Shown piece after piece: positions 26,588 through 34,473 of a DNA stretch of 64,000 nucleotides (its first letter is position 1; every line of letters starts with the position of its first letter). The translations under genes and the position numbers were made by a program. Source of the stretch: Hyphomicrobiales bacterium (GTDB taxonomy: Bacteria; Pseudomonadota; Alphaproteobacteria; Rhizobiales; Rhizobiaceae); assembly GCA_900466475.1 (NCBI GenBank), contig UBMI01000002.1, forward strand, positions 1 to 64,000, given 5' to 3'. The notes beneath the pieces were generated by a model. That model ran no database searches. It was not told the DNA's origin and saw only the letters and a list, made by a program, of their open reading frames with translations.

Positions 26588-27865
26588 ATGGTACGTGTAC
26601 CACCCATCACCGAGAGCACCGACAGCAACGCGAACCGCATGGTTCACGATCTCGCCGCACTCAAGTTCGAGGCGCCGCAGGCCGAAGCACGGATCGAAAT
26701 CGGCCGGCTGGGGCGCGAGCTCTGCCTTTACCCCGGCAGGCTGGGTTACGATCTGCAGGAAGAATTGGACTTCCTCTCCAACCGCGCGATGGAACCGAAC
26801 GTCTTTTTCAGCGGCCGTTTTCTGGCGCCTGCCATGCCACGTCTGGAAGACCGGCAGGTGAATTTCGCGATCATCCGCGACGAGAACGAACATCGCAGCC
26901 GCATGCGCCTGCTCATGCCCTTCTCGGTCGACAAGCCCGGCTTTGCCGTTGGCCCGTCGATCATCCGCGGCTGGGCAAACAGTTTCGGTCCGCTCGGCAC
27001 CCCCTTGGTCGATGCAGAGGAAGCGGCGGAGACGCTCGACAACCTCTTCGAAGGCCTTGTCACGCCGGACCTTGGCCTGCCGGGCACACTGGTGCTGCCG
27101 GATGTACGGCTGAACGGCATCTTCGTGCGCATGGCAAAGGCGGTGGCCCTCAGCCGCAACCTGCCGCTGACAGTTGCCAATCCCTATGAGCGGCCGATGC
27201 TGCAAAGCGATGACGACGCCATGGTCTATCTCGGCCGCACCATATCCTCCTCTCACCAGCGCGAGATGCGCCGCCAGTGGCGGCTTCTCGAAGAACTCGG
27301 TAATGTCGTCCACACCGTTGCCCGCCAGCCGCGCGAAATCCACCTTCGCTTCGAGGAGTTCCTCGCGTTGGAGGCCGGCGGCTGGAAGGGCAAGCGCCGC
27401 AGTGCGCTGGTGACCGACCGCTATCACACCGCGTTCGCCCGCGAGGCCGTCTCCAATCTGGCGGAAGTCGATGCCGTCCGCATCCACACGATCGACATTA
27501 ACGGCAAGGCGATTGCTGCCGTGGTCGTACTGATGATGGGTGGCGAGGCCTATACCTGGAAGACTGCCTACGACGAGAGCTACTCCCGCTATTCGCCAGG
27601 CAAGCTGCTAATGAGCGAACTGACCGAATGGCATCTCGACGACGCCAATGTCGTACGCTCGGATTCCTGCGCGGTCTCGGATCATCCGATCATGAGCCGC
27701 TTCTGGCAGGAACGCGAGGAGATGGGCACACTGGTGATCGGCCTCACCCAGAACGGTGACCGCGACATGCGACAGGTCGCGGCTCAGCTTCACATGTACC
27801 GCAGCACCCGCAACATGGCGAAGATGCTACGCGAGAAGATCATGTCGCTCGCCGGCCGCGGTTAG
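26588..27865 (+). CDS. CelD/BcsL-like GNAT acetyltransferase
   Basis: A 425-residue cytosolic protein whose C-terminal half (about 220-370) looks like the BioF2-like GNAT fold found in CelD/BcsL and FemAB-related proteins: a QREMRRQWRLLEE helix, FLALEAGGWKG, the WKTAYDESYSRYSPGKLLM segment that forms the acyl-CoA site, and a DFG-like turn. Such enzymes acylate polysaccharides or their precursors in cellulose and exopolysaccharide clusters. It starts on the base after the flippase stop, so it is translationally coupled to it. Its 3' end overlaps the converging acyl-CoA synthetase gene by four bases. Confidence 0.78.
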   Translation: MVRVPPITESTDSNANRMVHDLAALKFEAPQAEARIEIGRLGRELCLYPGRLGYDLQEELDFLSNRAMEPNVFFSGRFLAPAMPRLEDRQVNFAIIRDENEHRSRMRLLMPFSVDKPGFAVGPSIIRGWANSFGPLGTPLVDAEEAAETLDNLFEGLVTPDLGLPGTLVLPDVRLNGIFVRMAKAVALSRNLPLTVANPYERPMLQSDDDAMVYLGRTISSSHQREMRRQWRLLEELGNVVHTVARQPREIHLRFEEFLALEAGGWKGKRRSALVTDRYHTAFAREAVSNLAEVDAVRIHTIDINGKAIAAVVVLMMGGEAYTWKTAYDESYSRYSPGKLLMSELTEWHLDDANVVRSDSCAVSDHPIMSRFWQEREEMGTLVIGLTQNGDRDMRQVAAQLHMYRSTRNMAKMLREKIMSLAGRG

Positions 27866-29505
27866 CTTTTAGCTTCCGCCGCAGCCTTTTCCCGCAGCAG
27901 GCGCCGGATGACCTTGCCCGTCGTCGTCAGCGGCAGTGCATCGACGAATTCGACCTCGCGCGGATATTCGTGCATCGAAAGCCGGGTTTTCACCCAGTCC
28001 CGGATCTCCACTGCCAGTTCCGCGCTCGAGCTGTAGCCCGGCGAAAGCACGATATAGGCCTTGACGATCTCCGTGCGCAGCGCATCGGGCTTTCCAACGG
28101 CGGCAGCAAGCTGTACGGCCGGATGGCCGATGAGACAGTCCTCGATCTCTGCAGGCCCGATACGGTAGCCAGATGAGGTGATGACGTCGTCGTCGCGGCC
28201 CGCAAAGGTGACATAGCCCTCTGCGTCCTGCCGGCCGATATCGCCGGTCAGCAGCCAACCCTTGGCATATTTCCTGTCTGTCGCATCGGGATCGTTCCAG
28301 TAACCGAGAAACATTACTGGATCAGGGCTGGCGATTGCGATCTGCCCCTGCTCTCCGACCGGCAGTTCGTCACCTTCGTCGCTGACAACAGCAACCCTGT
28401 GACCAGGTGAGGCGCGCCCGATCGCGCCAGCTTTGGTCACCCCGAAGGCAGAGCTCGAAGACAGCACAAAATTGCACTCCGTCTGTCCGTAAAATTCATT
28501 GACGGTGATGCCAAGCGTACGGCGCGCCCACTCGTAGGTTTCGCGCCCCAGCGATTCACCTGCCGAACCGATGGTGCGCAGCACGAGATTGTATTTCGAG
28601 CGCGGCTCCTCGACGGATTTCAGGAGCCGGAGCGCCGTCGGCGGAATGAAAGCATTGCGCACCCTCATCTCGGCCATGATGCGATAGGCCATGTCGGCAT
28701 CGAATTTCTGGGCCGGCGAGGAGACGACAGGCACGCCGAGCAGCAGGCTCGGCAGCAGCGCGTTGAGCAGCCCGCCCGCCCAGGCCCAGTCTGATGGCGT
28801 CCAGACCTTGTCTCCGGCCTGCGGAAAGCCCTCATGGGCAAACTGCATGCCGGGAATATGGCCGGCGAGAACCCGGTGACCATGCAATGCGCCCTTCGGC
28901 GGCCCCGTCGTGCCCGACGTGAAGATCATCAGCGCTGGCTCGTCCGGGCCTGACGACGCAATTTCGAAAGCAGAAGAATAGGCAGAGACCAGCTCGGCAA
29001 AACCGAGCGTACCAGCCGATTCTCCCTCGATCGAGACGACGTGCTTGACGTCAGGCAGCCGGTCGCGGATCTGGTTGATGCGCGCAAGCCCGAAGCCGTT
29101 GGTGACGACGGCTGTCGCGCCCGCAGCCTTCAGCCGGTATTCCAGGGACTCGACCCCGAAGAGCAGCGCCAGCGGCAGCGCGATTGCGCCCATCTTGTAG
29201 ATCGCGACATGCGAAACGACCGTCTCGAAACATTGCGGCAGGAGTAGCGCAACCCGATCCCCCCAGCCGATGCCAAGTGCTGACAGCGCATTGGCGAAGG
29301 ATGAGGAGCGGGCGGCAAGCTCGCCATATGTCAAAGACAGATGGTGGCCGTCGGGACTAAAATGTTCGAGACAAACGCGATCGGGATCACGCGCGGCCCA
29401 ATCGTCGCTGACGGCACGGCCGATATTGAAATCCTTTGATATCTGCCAGGAAAAATCGCGGTAGAGCGTGTCATATCGATCGCCGGGCGGCAGTTTCATA
29501 GGCAT
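27862..29505 (-). CDS. AMP-forming acyl-CoA synthetase
   Basis: A 547-residue member of the ANL adenylating superfamily, close in length and sequence to the acetyl/medium-chain acyl-CoA synthetase group. The P-loop-like motif FTSGTTGPPKGAL is near residue 190, GYWNDPDATD and the TGDIGRQDAEGYVTF hinge are near 400-430, and the catalytic lysine is in TTTGKVIRR close to the C-terminus. It activates a carboxylic acid to its CoA thioester; chain length cannot be told. ATGs at 29505 and 29499 are both possible; the ribosome site is weak. It stands alone, convergent to the CelD-like gene. Confidence 0.86.
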   Translation of the reverse strand: MPMKLPPGDRYDTLYRDFSWQISKDFNIGRAVSDDWAARDPDRVCLEHFSPDGHHLSLTYGELAARSSSFANALSALGIGWGDRVALLLPQCFETVVSHVAIYKMGAIALPLALLFGVESLEYRLKAAGATAVVTNGFGLARINQIRDRLPDVKHVVSIEGESAGTLGFAELVSAYSSAFEIASSGPDEPALMIFTSGTTGPPKGALHGHRVLAGHIPGMQFAHEGFPQAGDKVWTPSDWAWAGGLLNALLPSLLLGVPVVSSPAQKFDADMAYRIMAEMRVRNAFIPPTALRLLKSVEEPRSKYNLVLRTIGSAGESLGRETYEWARRTLGITVNEFYGQTECNFVLSSSSAFGVTKAGAIGRASPGHRVAVVSDEGDELPVGEQGQIAIASPDPVMFLGYWNDPDATDRKYAKGWLLTGDIGRQDAEGYVTFAGRDDDVITSSGYRIGPAEIEDCLIGHPAVQLAAAVGKPDALRTEIVKAYIVLSPGYSSSAELAVEIRDWVKTRLSMHEYPREVEFVDALPLTTTGKVIRRLLREKAAAEAKS

Positions 29506-29721
29506 GATCCAGTAAAATGCTGCACCAGCTAACACCTCACCGGTCGAATGTGCAAGCATTGTAATCCGCAAGGATAAGACGACATCCCGCCCGTCCATCA
29601 CGTATTATTGCGCTAACTGCAGAAGACATTCTCCGCCTACTCACTGAGACTTCGGCAATTTCTGCACTACATCATGCGCATGCGCCTGGGGAGCCGCTGA
29701 AATTCATCACGGAGCATTTTT

Positions 29722-30702
29722 ATGGAATATGTAAAACTCGGGAAAACCGGTCTCGAAGTCTCGAAGATCTGCCTAGGCTGCATGACCTATGGCGATCCGG
29801 ACCGTGGAAACCACGCCTGGAGCCTGCCTGAAGAAGGAAGCCGCGCATTGCTCCGGCAAGCGATTGAACTCGGGATCAATTTCCTCGACACGGCCAATAC
29901 CTATTCCAACGGGTCCTCCGAGGAGATCGTCGGCCGCGCCATCAAGGATTTCGCCAAGCGTGAGGATATTGTTCTCGCCACCAAGGTCTTCAATCGCATG
30001 CGCCCCGGCCCGAACGGCGCCGGCCTGTCGCGTAAGGCGATCTTCGACGAGATCGACAACAGCCTGCGCCGCCTCGGCACCGATTATGTCGACCTCTACC
30101 AGATTCACCGGTGGGACTACACGACACCGATCGAGGAAACGCTCGAAGCTCTCCATGATGTCGTGAAAGCCGGCAAGGCGCGCTATATCGGCGCCTCCTC
30201 CATGTATTCCTGGCAGTTCGCCAAGGCGCTTTATACCTCCCGCGTCAACGGATGGACGGAATTCGTCAGCATGCAGGACCATCTGAACCTGCTCTACCGC
30301 GAGGAAGAACGGGAAATGCTGCCCTTCTGCGAAGACCAGAAGATCGGTGTCATTCCCTGGAGCCCGCTTGCCCGCGGCCGGTTGACCCGTGACTGGGACG
30401 ATAAGACCAACCGCAGCGAGACCGATGAATTCGGCAAGACGCTCTACAAGCAGGCTGAAGATGCCGATCGCAAGATCGTCGAGAAGGTTGCCGAAATTGC
30501 CAAGGCCCATGGCATCTCCCGCGCGCAGGTCGCCACCGCCTGGATCCTGCAGAAAAGTGCCGTCACCGCGCCGATCATCGGCGCATCCAAGGCGCAACAC
30601 CTCACGGATGCCGTCGGCTCGCTGACCGTGAAACTCAGCGCCGAAGACATTGCCGCACTCGAAGCCCCCTACATCCCGCACAATGTTGCGGGCTTTAAAT
30701 GA
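29722..30702 (+). CDS. aldo/keto reductase
   Basis: NADPH-dependent oxidoreductase of the AKR superfamily (326 residues). The catalytic tetrad is complete: D56, Y61, K88 and H129. The sequence is of the YajO/YeaE-like branch with the GTDYVDLYQIHRWD segment. The real substrate is likely a small aldehyde or ketone. The ATG at 29722 follows GGAGCA with normal spacing. It lies between the acyl-CoA synthetase and a methyltransferase without clear co-transcription with either. Confidence 0.92.
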   Translation: MEYVKLGKTGLEVSKICLGCMTYGDPDRGNHAWSLPEEGSRALLRQAIELGINFLDTANTYSNGSSEEIVGRAIKDFAKREDIVLATKVFNRMRPGPNGAGLSRKAIFDEIDNSLRRLGTDYVDLYQIHRWDYTTPIEETLEALHDVVKAGKARYIGASSMYSWQFAKALYTSRVNGWTEFVSMQDHLNLLYREEEREMLPFCEDQKIGVIPWSPLARGRLTRDWDDKTNRSETDEFGKTLYKQAEDADRKIVEKVAEIAKAHGISRAQVATAWILQKSAVTAPIIGASKAQHLTDAVGSLTVKLSAEDIAALEAPYIPHNVAGFK

Positions 30703-30885: not shown

Positions 30886-31680
30886 ATGACTATCGTTCCC
30901 TACGAAGCTCGCCGCTTCCGCACTACTGCTACTTACTATAGCCGCTTTCGCATCCCCTATCCGGACAGGTTGATCGAACGCGTTACCGAACGAACCGGCC
31001 TGAAACCCGGTGATCGTCTGCTTGATCTCGGCTGCGGCCCGGCACCGCTCGGCATCGCCTTTGCACGCCTCGCCGGCGCCGATGTCATCGGGATTGATCC
31101 CGAGCCGGAAATGCTTGATGCAGCACGCGAGAATGCGTCCGAAGCCGCGGTGACTATACGACTTATCCAGGGCTCCTCTTACGATCTCGGCCAGGATCTG
31201 GCACCGTTGAAGCTTGCAGTCATGGGCCGCGCCTTCCATTGGATGGACCGCCCGGCAACGCTTGCAGCACTCGATAAGCTCATCGCTCGCGATGGCGCTG
31301 TCGTTCTCTTCTCCGACAGGCATATCGCGGCCGCACCGGATTGGCGTGATGTCCTGCATCAGCTGTCAGAAACCTATTCGCCGGAAAAAAACGCCGAACG
31401 CAAATTGCGCCGCGCGCCGGAATTCGGACCGCACGAGACGGTCCTGCTGCACTCCCCCTTCCGCAACCTCGAACGCATTGGCATCGTCAACGAACGGATA
31501 ATCGGGACGGAGGACATAATCGGCCGCGCCTTCTCCATGTCCGTCACCTCTCCACAGGCGCTGGGCGACAAGACAGAAGAATTCGAGACGGCCTTCCGCA
31601 GCGAACTCGCAGCGCTCTCGCCGAACGGCACCTTTACTGAAATCGTCGAAGGCCTTGCGATGATCGCCTTCCGCGACTGA
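30886..31680 (+). CDS. class I SAM-dependent methyltransferase
   Basis: A 264-residue methyltransferase. Motif I is LLDLGCGPAPLGIA at about 45-58, motif II GIDPEPEML follows, and an AFHWMDR segment near 110 is typical of the methyltransferase_11/trans-aconitate-methylase-like group. The substrate cannot be predicted. It stands about 180 bases after the aldo/keto reductase and converges on the tetR gene. Confidence 0.85.
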   Translation: MTIVPYEARRFRTTATYYSRFRIPYPDRLIERVTERTGLKPGDRLLDLGCGPAPLGIAFARLAGADVIGIDPEPEMLDAARENASEAAVTIRLIQGSSYDLGQDLAPLKLAVMGRAFHWMDRPATLAALDKLIARDGAVVLFSDRHIAAAPDWRDVLHQLSETYSPEKNAERKLRRAPEFGPHETVLLHSPFRNLERIGIVNERIIGTEDIIGRAFSMSVTSPQALGDKTEEFETAFRSELAALSPNGTFTEIVEGLAMIAFRD

Positions 31681-31733: not shown

Positions 31734-32312
31734 CTAGGATGATTGCGCCGGATCGAGCCTGCGGCGCATCGTGACCAGAAATTGCTCGGCGAGCGCCCGG
31801 TCCTCGACCGCGCGGGCAAGAATGACGGCCCCCATCATCGATGAAAGCGTCGTCGTCGCATTGGCACGGCGCTCTTCCTCAGTCGCGCCGGGCACCACTT
31901 CCTTCAACACATCGACCAGCGTGGACAAGCCCTCGCTGAAGGTCGCACGAACCGCCCCTTCGCTGCGGCTGACCTCCTGGATCAGCGACGCAAAGACGCA
32001 GCTTCCACCGGGATCGTCGACCGTGCGCCAATGGATGTAATGATCGAGCAGCGCCTGAAGCGGACGATCTGGATGGCCGACAATCAACTCACGCCAGCGC
32101 TCCTCCACCCGCTCGATCAGCTTGCGGCTGACCTCCAAGGCAAGATCGTCCTTCGATTCGAAATGACCGTAGAACCCGCCATGCGTCAGACCCGCGGCTT
32201 TCATGATGTCCGCAACGCCAACGCCGTCGAACCCGTTCTCGCGGAAGAGCACGCTGGCTGCCGTCAGGATCTTCTCGCGGTTCTCTGCAAATTTCTCGCG
32301 GGTAACCCGCAT
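31734..32312 (-). CDS. TetR/AcrR family transcriptional repressor
   Basis: A 192-residue regulator. The N-terminal helix-turn-helix (about 10-55) has the canonical ILTAASVLFRENGFDGVGV and THGGFYGHFESKDDL blocks; the C-terminus resembles the TetR_C group that includes regulators with a GSCVFASLIQE segment, where a cysteine near residue 103 might sense a reactive ligand (inference). The start at 32312 has GGAGA six bases upstream. It is divergent from an MFS transporter across a 124-base region that contains two matched 14-bp palindromes and a good promoter, so it almost certainly controls both itself and the transporter. Confidence 0.92.
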   Translation of the reverse strand: MRVTREKFAENREKILTAASVLFRENGFDGVGVADIMKAAGLTHGGFYGHFESKDDLALEVSRKLIERVEERWRELIVGHPDRPLQALLDHYIHWRTVDDPGGSCVFASLIQEVSRSEGAVRATFSEGLSTLVDVLKEVVPGATEEERRANATTTLSSMMGAVILARAVEDRALAEQFLVTMRRRLDPAQSS

Positions 32313-32342
32313 TTTTCGTCTCCGGAAATGGTCGCTTGACAA

Positions 32343-32371
32343 TTTATATGATGTCCATCATCAATATGCAA
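32343..32371 (-). promoter_or_regulatory. putative tetR promoter
   Basis: On the minus strand: -35 TTGCAT (32371-32366), a 17-base spacer, -10 TATAAA (32348-32343), about 30 bases before the start codon. Operator 1 lies within the spacer and touches the -10 box. Confidence 0.65.
32348..32361. promoter_or_regulatory. TetR operator 1
   Basis: Perfect palindrome ATGATG-TC-CATCAT in the tetR/MFS divergent region. It sits inside the putative tetR promoter, so bound repressor would block RNA polymerase. Binding itself is inferred. Confidence 0.65.
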
Positions 32372-32376
32372 CAAAT

Positions 32377-32390
32377 ATGATGGTCGTCAT
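32377..32390. promoter_or_regulatory. TetR operator 2
   Basis: ATGATG-GT-CGTCAT, the same 14-bp pattern as operator 1 with one mismatched arm position, centred 29 bases further right and closer to the MFS transporter gene. Confidence 0.6.
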
Positions 32391-32436
32391 GTAAAACGGC
32401 CTTGTATGGTCCCGACGTCACAAACGGAATTTGCCC

Positions 32437-33732
32437 ATGGTCTCTGCTGTACTTGCTTCAACCCTTGCCCGGCGAAACATCCACTATGGATGGGTTGTCG
32501 TCGCAGCCACCTTCCTGACCATGCTGGTAACCGCCGGCGCAATGGGGGCGCCGGGCGTGCTCATCAAGCCGCTGCAGAACGAGTTCGGCTGGGAAACTTC
32601 GCAGATTTCCTCCGCACTCGCCATCCGCCTGATCCTCTTCGGCCTGATGGGACCGTTTGCCGCCGCCTTCATGAATTATTTCGGTGTCCGCAAGGTCATT
32701 GTCTTCGCCCTTGCCTTGATCGGCGCGGGCTTCGTCGGCTCGCTGTTCATGACCAAGCTCTGGCATCTGCTGGCGCTCTGGGGCATCGTCGTCGGCTTCG
32801 GAACCGGGCTGACTGCCATGGTGCTGGCAGCCACGGTTTCCACCCGCTGGTTCGTCAAGCATCGCGGCCTTGTCGTCGGCATGCTCTCGGCAAGCTCGGC
32901 GACCGGCCAGCTCGTCTTCCTGCCGCTGATGGCGGAATTGACCGAACGCTACGGCTGGCGCGCCACGGTCTTCTTCGTCTGCGCGATGATCATGGTTGCT
33001 GCTCTTCTCGTGCTACTTTTCATGCGTGACCGCCCCTCGGACGTAAATCTGCCCTCGGTCGGCGAAACTCAGGTGACGCCGCCCCCGGCCCGCGGCACAC
33101 TCGCCGCCGCGCTTGCAACGCCGATCACCGTTCTCAGGGAAATCTCGACGACTTCGACCTTCTGGATCCTGTTTGCCACCTTCTTCATCTGCGGTCTCAG
33201 CACCAACGGCCTGATCCAGACGCATTTCGTGACACTTTGCGGTGACTACGGCATCATGCCGGTCGCAGCCGCCAGTGTCCTAGCCGTCATGGGCATCTTC
33301 GATTTCTTCGGCACGATCGGCTCCGGCTGGCTTTCCGACCGCTTCGACAATCGCTGGCTGCTCTTCTGGTATTACGGCTTGCGCGGCCTCTCGCTGCTCT
33401 TCCTGCCCTTCAGCGATTTCTCGTTCTACGGCCTGTCGATATTCGCCGTCTTCTATGGCCTGGACTGGATCGCCACGGTGCCGCCGACCGTCAAGATTGC
33501 CGCTGACCGCTTCGGCCGTGAAAAAGCCGGTCTCGTCTTCGGCTGGGTCTTCGCCGGCCACCAGCTTGGCGCTGCAACCGCTGCTTACGGCGCCGGCCTG
33601 TCGCGTACGGCGCTGGAAAGCTACCTGCCGGCATTCTTCATTGCCGGTGCCTTCTGTCTGCTCGCCTCGGTTCTGGCGATCACGCTGAAGAAATCGGGCC
33701 TAACCGGCGCAAGCGCAACGGTGGCCCACTAA
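32437..33732 (+). CDS. MFS transporter
   Basis: A 431-residue major facilitator with 12 predicted membrane segments, resembling the monocarboxylate/oxalate-formate (OFA-like) group: the N-terminal IHYGWVVVAATFLTML segment and the LPLMAELTERYGWRATVF loop are typical. A cytoplasmic loop lies near residues 195-225. Substrate is unknown; small carboxylates or a toxic compound are possible given control by the divergent TetR. I start at the ATG at 32437; a TTG two codons earlier has no better ribosome site. Confidence 0.88.
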   Translation: MVSAVLASTLARRNIHYGWVVVAATFLTMLVTAGAMGAPGVLIKPLQNEFGWETSQISSALAIRLILFGLMGPFAAAFMNYFGVRKVIVFALALIGAGFVGSLFMTKLWHLLALWGIVVGFGTGLTAMVLAATVSTRWFVKHRGLVVGMLSASSATGQLVFLPLMAELTERYGWRATVFFVCAMIMVAALLVLLFMRDRPSDVNLPSVGETQVTPPPARGTLAAALATPITVLREISTTSTFWILFATFFICGLSTNGLIQTHFVTLCGDYGIMPVAAASVLAVMGIFDFFGTIGSGWLSDRFDNRWLLFWYYGLRGLSLLFLPFSDFSFYGLSIFAVFYGLDWIATVPPTVKIAADRFGREKAGLVFGWVFAGHQLGAATAAYGAGLSRTALESYLPAFFIAGAFCLLASVLAITLKKSGLTGASATVAH

Positions 33733-33817: not shown

Positions 33818-33902
33818 GCCCCATTGGCGGAATTGGTAGACGCGCTCGACTCAAAATCGAGTTTCGAAAGAAGTGCTGGTTCGACCCCGGCATGGGGCAC
33901 CA
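33818..33902 (+). tRNA. tRNA-Leu(CAA)
   Basis: Cloverleaf of 85 bases including an encoded CCA end. Acceptor GCCCCAT pairs with ATGGGGC; the anticodon stem CTCGA/TCGAG (33845-33849, 33857-33861) encloses loop CTCAAAA with anticodon CAA at 33852-33854, reading UUG. A long variable arm (class II) and GGTTCGACCCC T-arm confirm leucine identity. No integrated element borders its 3' end. Confidence 0.96.
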
Positions 33903-34012: not shown

Positions 34013-34315
34013 TTAGTCACACCGTCTGACCGTTTTTGTCACCGTTCCTTCGTCAGTCTCGCGGGTCACGCTGCGCGTGTAGCAGCGGTCACGGTCCCGA
34101 TCGCGATAACGATCACGTTCGCGCACCGCGCCGAACGTAATGCCGCGATCACTGATGGTAACGCCGGGTCGGACCCGGTCTCGGTCACGGTCGTAACGAT
34201 CATAACCGTCATAGGCGCGCTCGCGTGTGACTGTAACGCTGCCTGCCATCGCAGGCGCCGCAGCCGAGCCCAGGGCAAGGGCAGCGATTGCGCAGTTGAT
34301 GATGATCTTTCGCAT
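34013..34315 (-). CDS. unknown small secreted Arg/Asp/Tyr-rich protein
   Basis: A 100-residue product of unknown family. A clear signal peptide (about 1-24, ending APAMA-G) precedes a mature part of about 76 residues built around repeated YDRYDRDRDR and DRYRDRDRDR runs, then CYTRSVTRETDEGTVTKTVRRCD with two cysteines that could form a disulfide. The start at 34315 is supported by AGGAGA a few bases upstream; a longer frame adds 20 unlikely residues. The C-terminal ETDEGTVTKTVRRC pattern is one I associate with small rhizobial periplasmic proteins, but no function is known. Confidence 0.7.
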   Translation of the reverse strand: MRKIIINCAIAALALGSAAAPAMAGSVTVTRERAYDGYDRYDRDRDRVRPGVTISDRGITFGAVRERDRYRDRDRDRCYTRSVTRETDEGTVTKTVRRCD

Positions 34316-34473
34316 ATCTCTTCTCCTCGTCTTCATGCATAGGCAACGACCCAGGAGCTTCGTGGTTCCGCCCAAAAAGGCAGCCCTTTAAGCCAATTCT
34401 ATTCAAATCAACTCTTTAACTTTGCCGACGCTTCGTCCTAAAGTGCCGGCCTTGCGGCATTTTGAGAGGGCTG

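Follow-up and report, generated by a model that had tools for sequence, protein, structure and literature searches.

A conserved double operator between divergent tetR and MFS transporter genes in Rhizobium and its probable assignment to the adjacent TetR-family repressor

Results

The 124 bp gap between a tetR-family gene and a divergent MFS transporter gene (32313-32436, between the tetR ATG at 32312 and the MFS ATG at 32437) holds two palindromes, and comparison across relatives confirmed them as a real and conserved double operator, which looks like part of an ordinary kind of chemical switch. The palindromes are very probably the operator pair of the adjacent repressor itself. All positions refer to the window, the whole stretch of 64,000 nucleotides that was analysed. 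We consider it likely that the model as a whole is correct, namely that operator 1 (O1) and operator 2 (O2) are the paired operators of the adjacent TetR, that O1 shuts both promoters with O2 as an auxiliary site, and that a signal induces the transporter. The operator pair, its match to the repressor class, the conserved promoter elements, and the gene pairing come from comparison of relatives.

Gene organization and its conservation

The tetR-family repressor gene occupies 31734..32312 on the minus strand and encodes 192 aa from the ATG at 32312, which is preceded by a Shine-Dalgarno sequence, GGAG (32323-32320, minus strand). Its product scored 54.6 bits against Pfam TetR_N (PF00440; cut-off 24) and 32.3 bits against TetR_C_13 (PF16925; cut-off 27), placing the repressor in the latter subgroup. 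Met1 was unchanged across 22 aligned orthologues, and a longer TTG start for tetR was disfavoured. The MFS transporter gene (32437..33732, plus strand) encodes 431 aa (Pfam MFS_1, 162 bits) and is directly followed by a tRNA-Leu gene (anticodon caa; 33818-33902). A methyltransferase gene lies beside the tetR/MFS pair (30886-31680), an aldo/keto reductase gene is located two genes away from tetR (29722-30702), and an AMP-binding enzyme gene is found nearby (27862-29601). By eye, a small ORF on the minus strand (34013-34375) begins like a signal peptide and contains an Arg-Asp repeat tract.

The orthologue loci that carry names came from Rhizobium or Rhizobiales isolates, placing the window in a Rhizobium genome. 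An orthologue of tetR (E 1e-50 or better) was present in 147 of 148 Rhizobium genomes. The MFS gene was divergent from tetR in all 80 Rhizobium loci (83.6-97.9% identity), which, together with the Pfam domains, bore out the TetR/MFS divergent pair proposed in the first-pass annotation. The neighbouring aldo/keto reductase gene was found in 77/80 and the AMP-binding gene in 76/80 of these loci, counts that include six loci shorter than 8 kb, and Rhizobium sp. NLR16a carries both genes on its plasmid p3. Outside Rhizobium, the divergent TetR-operator-MFS arrangement was seen in 10 of the 11 loci looked at (L017, L019, L177, L258, L260, L271, L280, L281, L284, and L286; MFS identity 62-73%), the eleven having been picked because both genes gave hits and the L258 match covering residues 143-430 only. 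One clear operator site only was recognized in L177, L281, and L286. Loci were obtained for 30 of 58 order-level MFS orthologue places, and most of the MFS orthologues examined there did not adjoin this TetR: a TetR hit was absent from 24 of the 26 loci L175-L200 within a flank of up to 1.5 kb. On plasmids, the MFS orthologues had genes for an SDR, a thiolase, or an aldo/keto reductase as neighbours. In Paroceanicella and Sphingomonas, the aldo/keto reductases encoded close to MFS orthologues shared only 33-35% identity with that of the window.

The operator pair

O1 (ATGATGTCCATCAT, 32348..32361) is proximal to tetR and O2 (ATGATGGTCGTCAT, 32377..32390) is proximal to the transporter gene. 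Both fit ATGAYNNNNRTCAT, and they are 29 bp apart from centre to centre and also from start to start. The matched double operator described in the first-pass annotation was thus recovered by direct reading, and it was equally evident in the alignment of 81 rows, which consisted of the window and 80 Rhizobium loci (the best 80 of 260 relatives). O1 and O2 stood at exactly 29 bp in 81/81 rows, each site within 3 mismatches, and the outer four dyad base pairs of both sites were invariant in every row. At dyad position 6 of O2, both halves were altered yet remained paired (T-A or C-G) in four of the 81 rows. The earlier description of a perfect first palindrome and a near-copy second did not turn out to be a fixed property, as dyad position 5 was imperfect in O1 in 48 rows and in O2 in 14. 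Among 30 less redundant rows, the columns beyond O2 (32396-32430) reached at most 0.6 bit each.

This conservation provides the strongest evidence that the predicted operator pair exceeds chance. When up to 2 mismatches were allowed, ATGATGNNCATCAT matched the window four times versus 2.7 expected, which is not significant alone, and single-site statistics in the window were therefore rejected as evidence. Without mismatch, ATGAYNNNNRTCAT matched only O1 and O2 in the window versus 0.31 matches expected, and 8 of 100 shuffles reached two. As a pair with a gap of 8-24 bp, ATGAYNNNNRTCAT was found at one place in the 7.2-Mb genome, and the reversed control pattern at none; the concern that the same palindromes might be common in unrelated places did not apply to the pair, which was unique in the genome. 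The genome search that had been suggested for the exact 14-mer returned 6 places, the other five of which lay inside long reading frames. Coding-sequence matches to the 14-mer include genes that we take, from their protein starts, to be purC and eno. With one mismatch allowed, the 14-mer matched 69 places in the genome, of which 10 were inspected, and the repressor may have further single-site targets among them.

Match between recognition helix and operator type

A survey of 81 family TetR homologues (82 hits minus one 76-residue fragment) was carried out with ATGAYNNNNRTCAT, at most one mismatch being allowed within 250 bp upstream. A site was present upstream of 24 of the 26 relatives with the recognition helix THG[GA]FYGHF, and 23 of them had two or more sites, whereas the in-gene control for the same set gave 1/26. 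These 26 include four Rhizobium orthologues (among them the window) and L244, a paralogue from a Rhizobium genome; the two without a site in the 250 bp scanned were L015 and L229. None of the 27 relatives with the helix TQG[GA]FYKQF had a ATGAYNNNNRTCAT site upstream, and this sister TetR group carried TAGATNNNNATCTA instead (11/27 with at most one mismatch). Other helices had a site in 16/28 cases, including 4/4 for THGGFYGYF. TAGATNNNNATCTA was seen upstream of tetR in L024, L207, L023, L217, and L216, and a GAT-N4-ATC core is common to both operator types.

A class-wide sample covered 385 genomes, from which 29 loci were examined; the helix class was here extended to THG[GA]FYG[HY]F. A site was present in 9/9 members of this class, including one place seen before (L266 = L154), and two sites were found 22-34 bp apart in 7/9. 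Other helices had a site in 16/18 cases and TQG in 0/2, and the in-gene control gave 0/29. In relatives outside the Rhizobium orthologue group, the two sites of a pair were spaced by about 23-32 bp. A free search for the pair in 297 genomes of the order gave 23 places in 21 genomes. Among the 21 places examined, 16 were upstream of a TetR homologue, four of these being Rhizobium orthologues. The pair was located past the 3' end of a TetR gene in L164 and L165 and adjoined a contig-cut TetR piece in L170, and no TetR was found at either of the loci L163 and L166. Because the operator type follows the recognition helix and free pairs are mostly upstream of TetR genes, O1 and O2 were assigned to this TetR subgroup.

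Partners other than a transporter were seen among these relatives. In L033, L154, L159, L206, L212, L220, L224, L226, and L231, the gene divergent from TetR across the same kind of operator pair encodes a short-chain dehydrogenase, which was recognized in 7/7 frames tested by family and by eye in L159 and L224. In L210, which has the same helix and operator pair, the gene opposite the TetR relative encodes a flavin oxidoreductase (Oxidored_FMN, 95.5 bits; L210:1079-1537). The frame taken from L239 gave no family match, and at several loci where the longest frame ran on the wrong strand the neighbour was left unassigned. The sequences ATGATGGTCATCAT, ATGATGNNCATCAT, ATGATNNNNATCAT, ATGATGGACATCAT, ATGATGACCATCAT, and ATGATGTCCATCAT occurred in no main text of the open-access papers searched. 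No study of this locus was among the literature matches listed, and the terms looked for had zero occurrences in PMC5017801 (blr7984 TetR).

Predicted promoters

Promoters were scored at each position over the 81 rows using a matrix for E. coli sigma-70. The best minus-strand promoter was TTGCAT-17-TATAAA (mean 6.53, lowest row -3.26, window 5.13), the same tetR promoter that had been placed around O1 in the first reading, and its coordinates checked. The -35 element TTGCAT (32366..32371, minus strand) kept its TTG and its last T in at least 98% of the 81 rows, and the -10 element TATAAA (32343..32348, minus strand), 17 bp away, has its first base in common with O1. Thirteen of the 14 bases of O1 fall within the spacer of this predicted promoter and the other base forms the initial T of the -10, supporting the suggestion that tetR may repress itself through O1.

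The best plus-strand promoter was TTGACA-17-CATCAA (32336-32364; mean 6.30, no variation). Its probable transporter -35, TTGACA (32336..32341, plus strand), was invariant in 81/81 rows and lies outside both palindromes. The probable -10, CATCAA (32359..32364, plus strand), is weak (3 of 6), and the absence of variation in its score over the 81 rows is confounded by its overlap with the end of O1 and the flank. We infer that this promoter overlaps that of tetR, which would place O1 in the spacers of both and make O2 auxiliary; the earlier proposal that O2 would govern the transporter was thus not supported in that form. An alternative transporter -10, TGTAAA (32390..32395, plus strand), abuts O2, and its TAAA part was 99-100% conserved. 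An automated sigma-70 scan of the window, which demands T at -10 position 6, listed neither promoter, and both predictions therefore rest on conservation.

CAATA, in the stretch that separates O1 from the tetR -35, was examined as a possible -10 element and set aside as likely operator flank, since AT-rich sequence of this kind also adjoins the operator in other genera. TGTCA or GTCAA was found beside O1 in 35 of 42 further loci from other genera and paralogues; this count leaves out L170 (C-terminal TetR piece only) and the Rhizobium orthologues L167-L169, retains three paralogues found in Rhizobium genomes (L237, L242, and L244), and includes O1 picks that slid to an overlapping match in L151, L153, and L156.

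Discussion

According to the model favoured here, a repressor dimer on O1 would sit within the spacers of both overlapping divergent promoters and shut tetR as well as the transporter gene. O2 sits shortly upstream of the tetR -35 and shortly after the predicted transporter start; with TTGACA as the transporter -35, it would span about -41 to -54 relative to tetR and about +6 to +19 relative to the transporter. A second dimer bound there would strengthen repression of the transporter and only modulate tetR. A ligand or a thiol-reactive signal, sensed in the domain with the invariant Cys105, may free both dimers and thereby induce the transporter. Cooperative stacking of the dimers finds no support because 29 bp does not correspond to whole helical turns and other members use other spacings. 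Binding itself, the division of labour, induction, and the direction and substrate of the transporter are the parts of the model that we infer. The first-pass annotation had read the region as a testable ligand-responsive switch, and this reading is supported.

With regard to the signal, the transporter might import a small organic acid, and the inducer would then be that acid or a metabolite such as a CoA ester. This proposal is plausible but lies on the unlikely side. Among proteins of solved structure, the lactate transporter SfMCT (E 2.6e-26) and the human MCTs come closest to the transporter, the plasmid MFS orthologues occur with thiolase and SDR genes, and the AMP-binding enzyme gene nearby is retained in 76/80 Rhizobium loci, all of which are consistent with an acid substrate. 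However, the transporter scored 152.6 bits against the SfMCT family, below the curated cut-off of 320, and where SfMCT and MCT2 have their transmembrane-8 Arg the transporter has Thr293, a position that is Thr in 80/80 Rhizobium orthologues.

A NemR-like thiol switch at Cys105, in which reactive aldehydes, quinones, or chlorine species act as inducers and the transporter exports them or their products, appears fairly unlikely. The predicted fold of the repressor (pLDDT 83.9) found its best matches among solved TetR-type regulators; the closest structure was 2fd5 and the second was E. coli NemR, to which the repressor is 23% identical over 143 aa. Cys105 aligns with NemR Cys106 and was invariant in 102/102 rows, which comprise 100 loci, the window, and NemR, three of the loci being duplicates (L167-L169). 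The Oxidored_FMN enzyme facing the TetR relative of the same helix class in L210 belongs to the family of NemA, an old yellow enzyme according to the available part of PMC5297802, and the aldo/keto reductase gene two genes from tetR points in the same direction. As far as the available parts of the reviews PMC7464077 and PMC5297802 extend, Cys106 with Lys175 of NemR senses reactive chlorine, and Cys21 and Cys116 are needed for electrophiles. In the repressor, however, Cys21 and Cys116 are replaced by Phe23 and Ser115, and Lys175 by Arg167 (Arg in 99/102 rows). Because these three residues are not kept, NemR membership fails as judged from the alignment, and the thiol switch is only a lead. In addition, an invariant Cys may be structural, and the aldo/keto reductases encoded close to plasmid-borne MFS orthologues share just 33-35% identity with that of the window.

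As for the division of labour, O1 could instead repress tetR only, with O2 repressing the transporter from a promoter of its own whose -10 would be the TGTAAA abutting O2. The conservation of TAAA after O2 in the 81 rows (99-100%) would fit this arrangement, as would its geometry, which mirrors that of tetR, where the last T of the operator is likewise part of the -10. We nevertheless regard it as unlikely: the TGTAAA promoter was outside the best eight plus-strand promoters, no good -35 was seen by sequence inspection at 16-18 bp from it, operators in other genera are commonly flanked by AT-rich sequence, and the invariant TTGACA at 32336 would be left unexplained. It is highly improbable that the palindromes serve a different regulator or are a chance repeat, since the operator type tracks the recognition helix of the neighbouring TetR in both the family and the class and 16 of 21 free-pair places are upstream of a TetR homologue. 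On the other side, single mismatched sites in the window are no rarer than chance, the 14-mer is found at five further positions within coding sequence, and 5 of the 21 places have the pair elsewhere than upstream of a TetR gene.

A broader joint reading would cover a widespread alphaproteobacterial TetR subgroup. According to this reading, the helix THG(G/A)FYG(H/Y)F recognizes ATGAY-N4-RTCAT, with most sites paired at a distance of about 23-30 bp, the helix TQG(G/A)FYKQF recognizes TAGAT-N4-ATCTA, and the subgroup uses a thiol switch based on the invariant Cys, with Arg replacing the Lys of NemR, a switch chemistry not yet described for NemR. We hold it doubtful that all of these parts are true together. 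The value of the match between helix and operator is that one recognition-helix string yields an operator guess for many unstudied alphaproteobacterial TetR repressors, and the Rhizobium regulator offers a ready switch for finding inducers and for building inducible promoters in rhizobia.

Among known systems, SfMCT and the monocarboxylate transporters are similar in that they include the best solved relatives of the transporter, although the transporter falls under the family cut-off and has Thr in place of the transmembrane-8 Arg. In QacR-type regulation, two dimers share one long overlapping operator. Two TetR-family dimers are likewise predicted to bind one regulatory region here, but on two distinct palindromes separated by 15 bp. 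The repressor resembles E. coli NemR in its predicted fold (rank 2) and in keeping the equivalent of Cys106; it differs in the loss of Cys21, Cys116, and Lys175, in its low identity (23%), and in gene order, as nemR precedes nemA and gloA and is not opposite an MFS gene.

The tetR and tetA genes of Tn10 are divergent, with operators about 30 bp apart, and the present locus likewise has a divergent repressor gene and MFS gene with two operators. The operator sequence is different, the repressor here belongs to the TetR_C_13 subgroup, and no evidence for tetracycline as the inducer was found at this locus. One tetR promoter is predicted here versus two in Tn10, and the available part of PMC3037858 gives no indication of operator cooperativity in the Tn10 tet system. 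In the same part of that source, binding to tetO1 shuts both genes, whereas tetO2 impedes tetA and merely down-regulates tetR. The arrangement predicted here is similar, with overlapping promoters, one operator placed to act on both genes, and the other acting mainly on the transporter.
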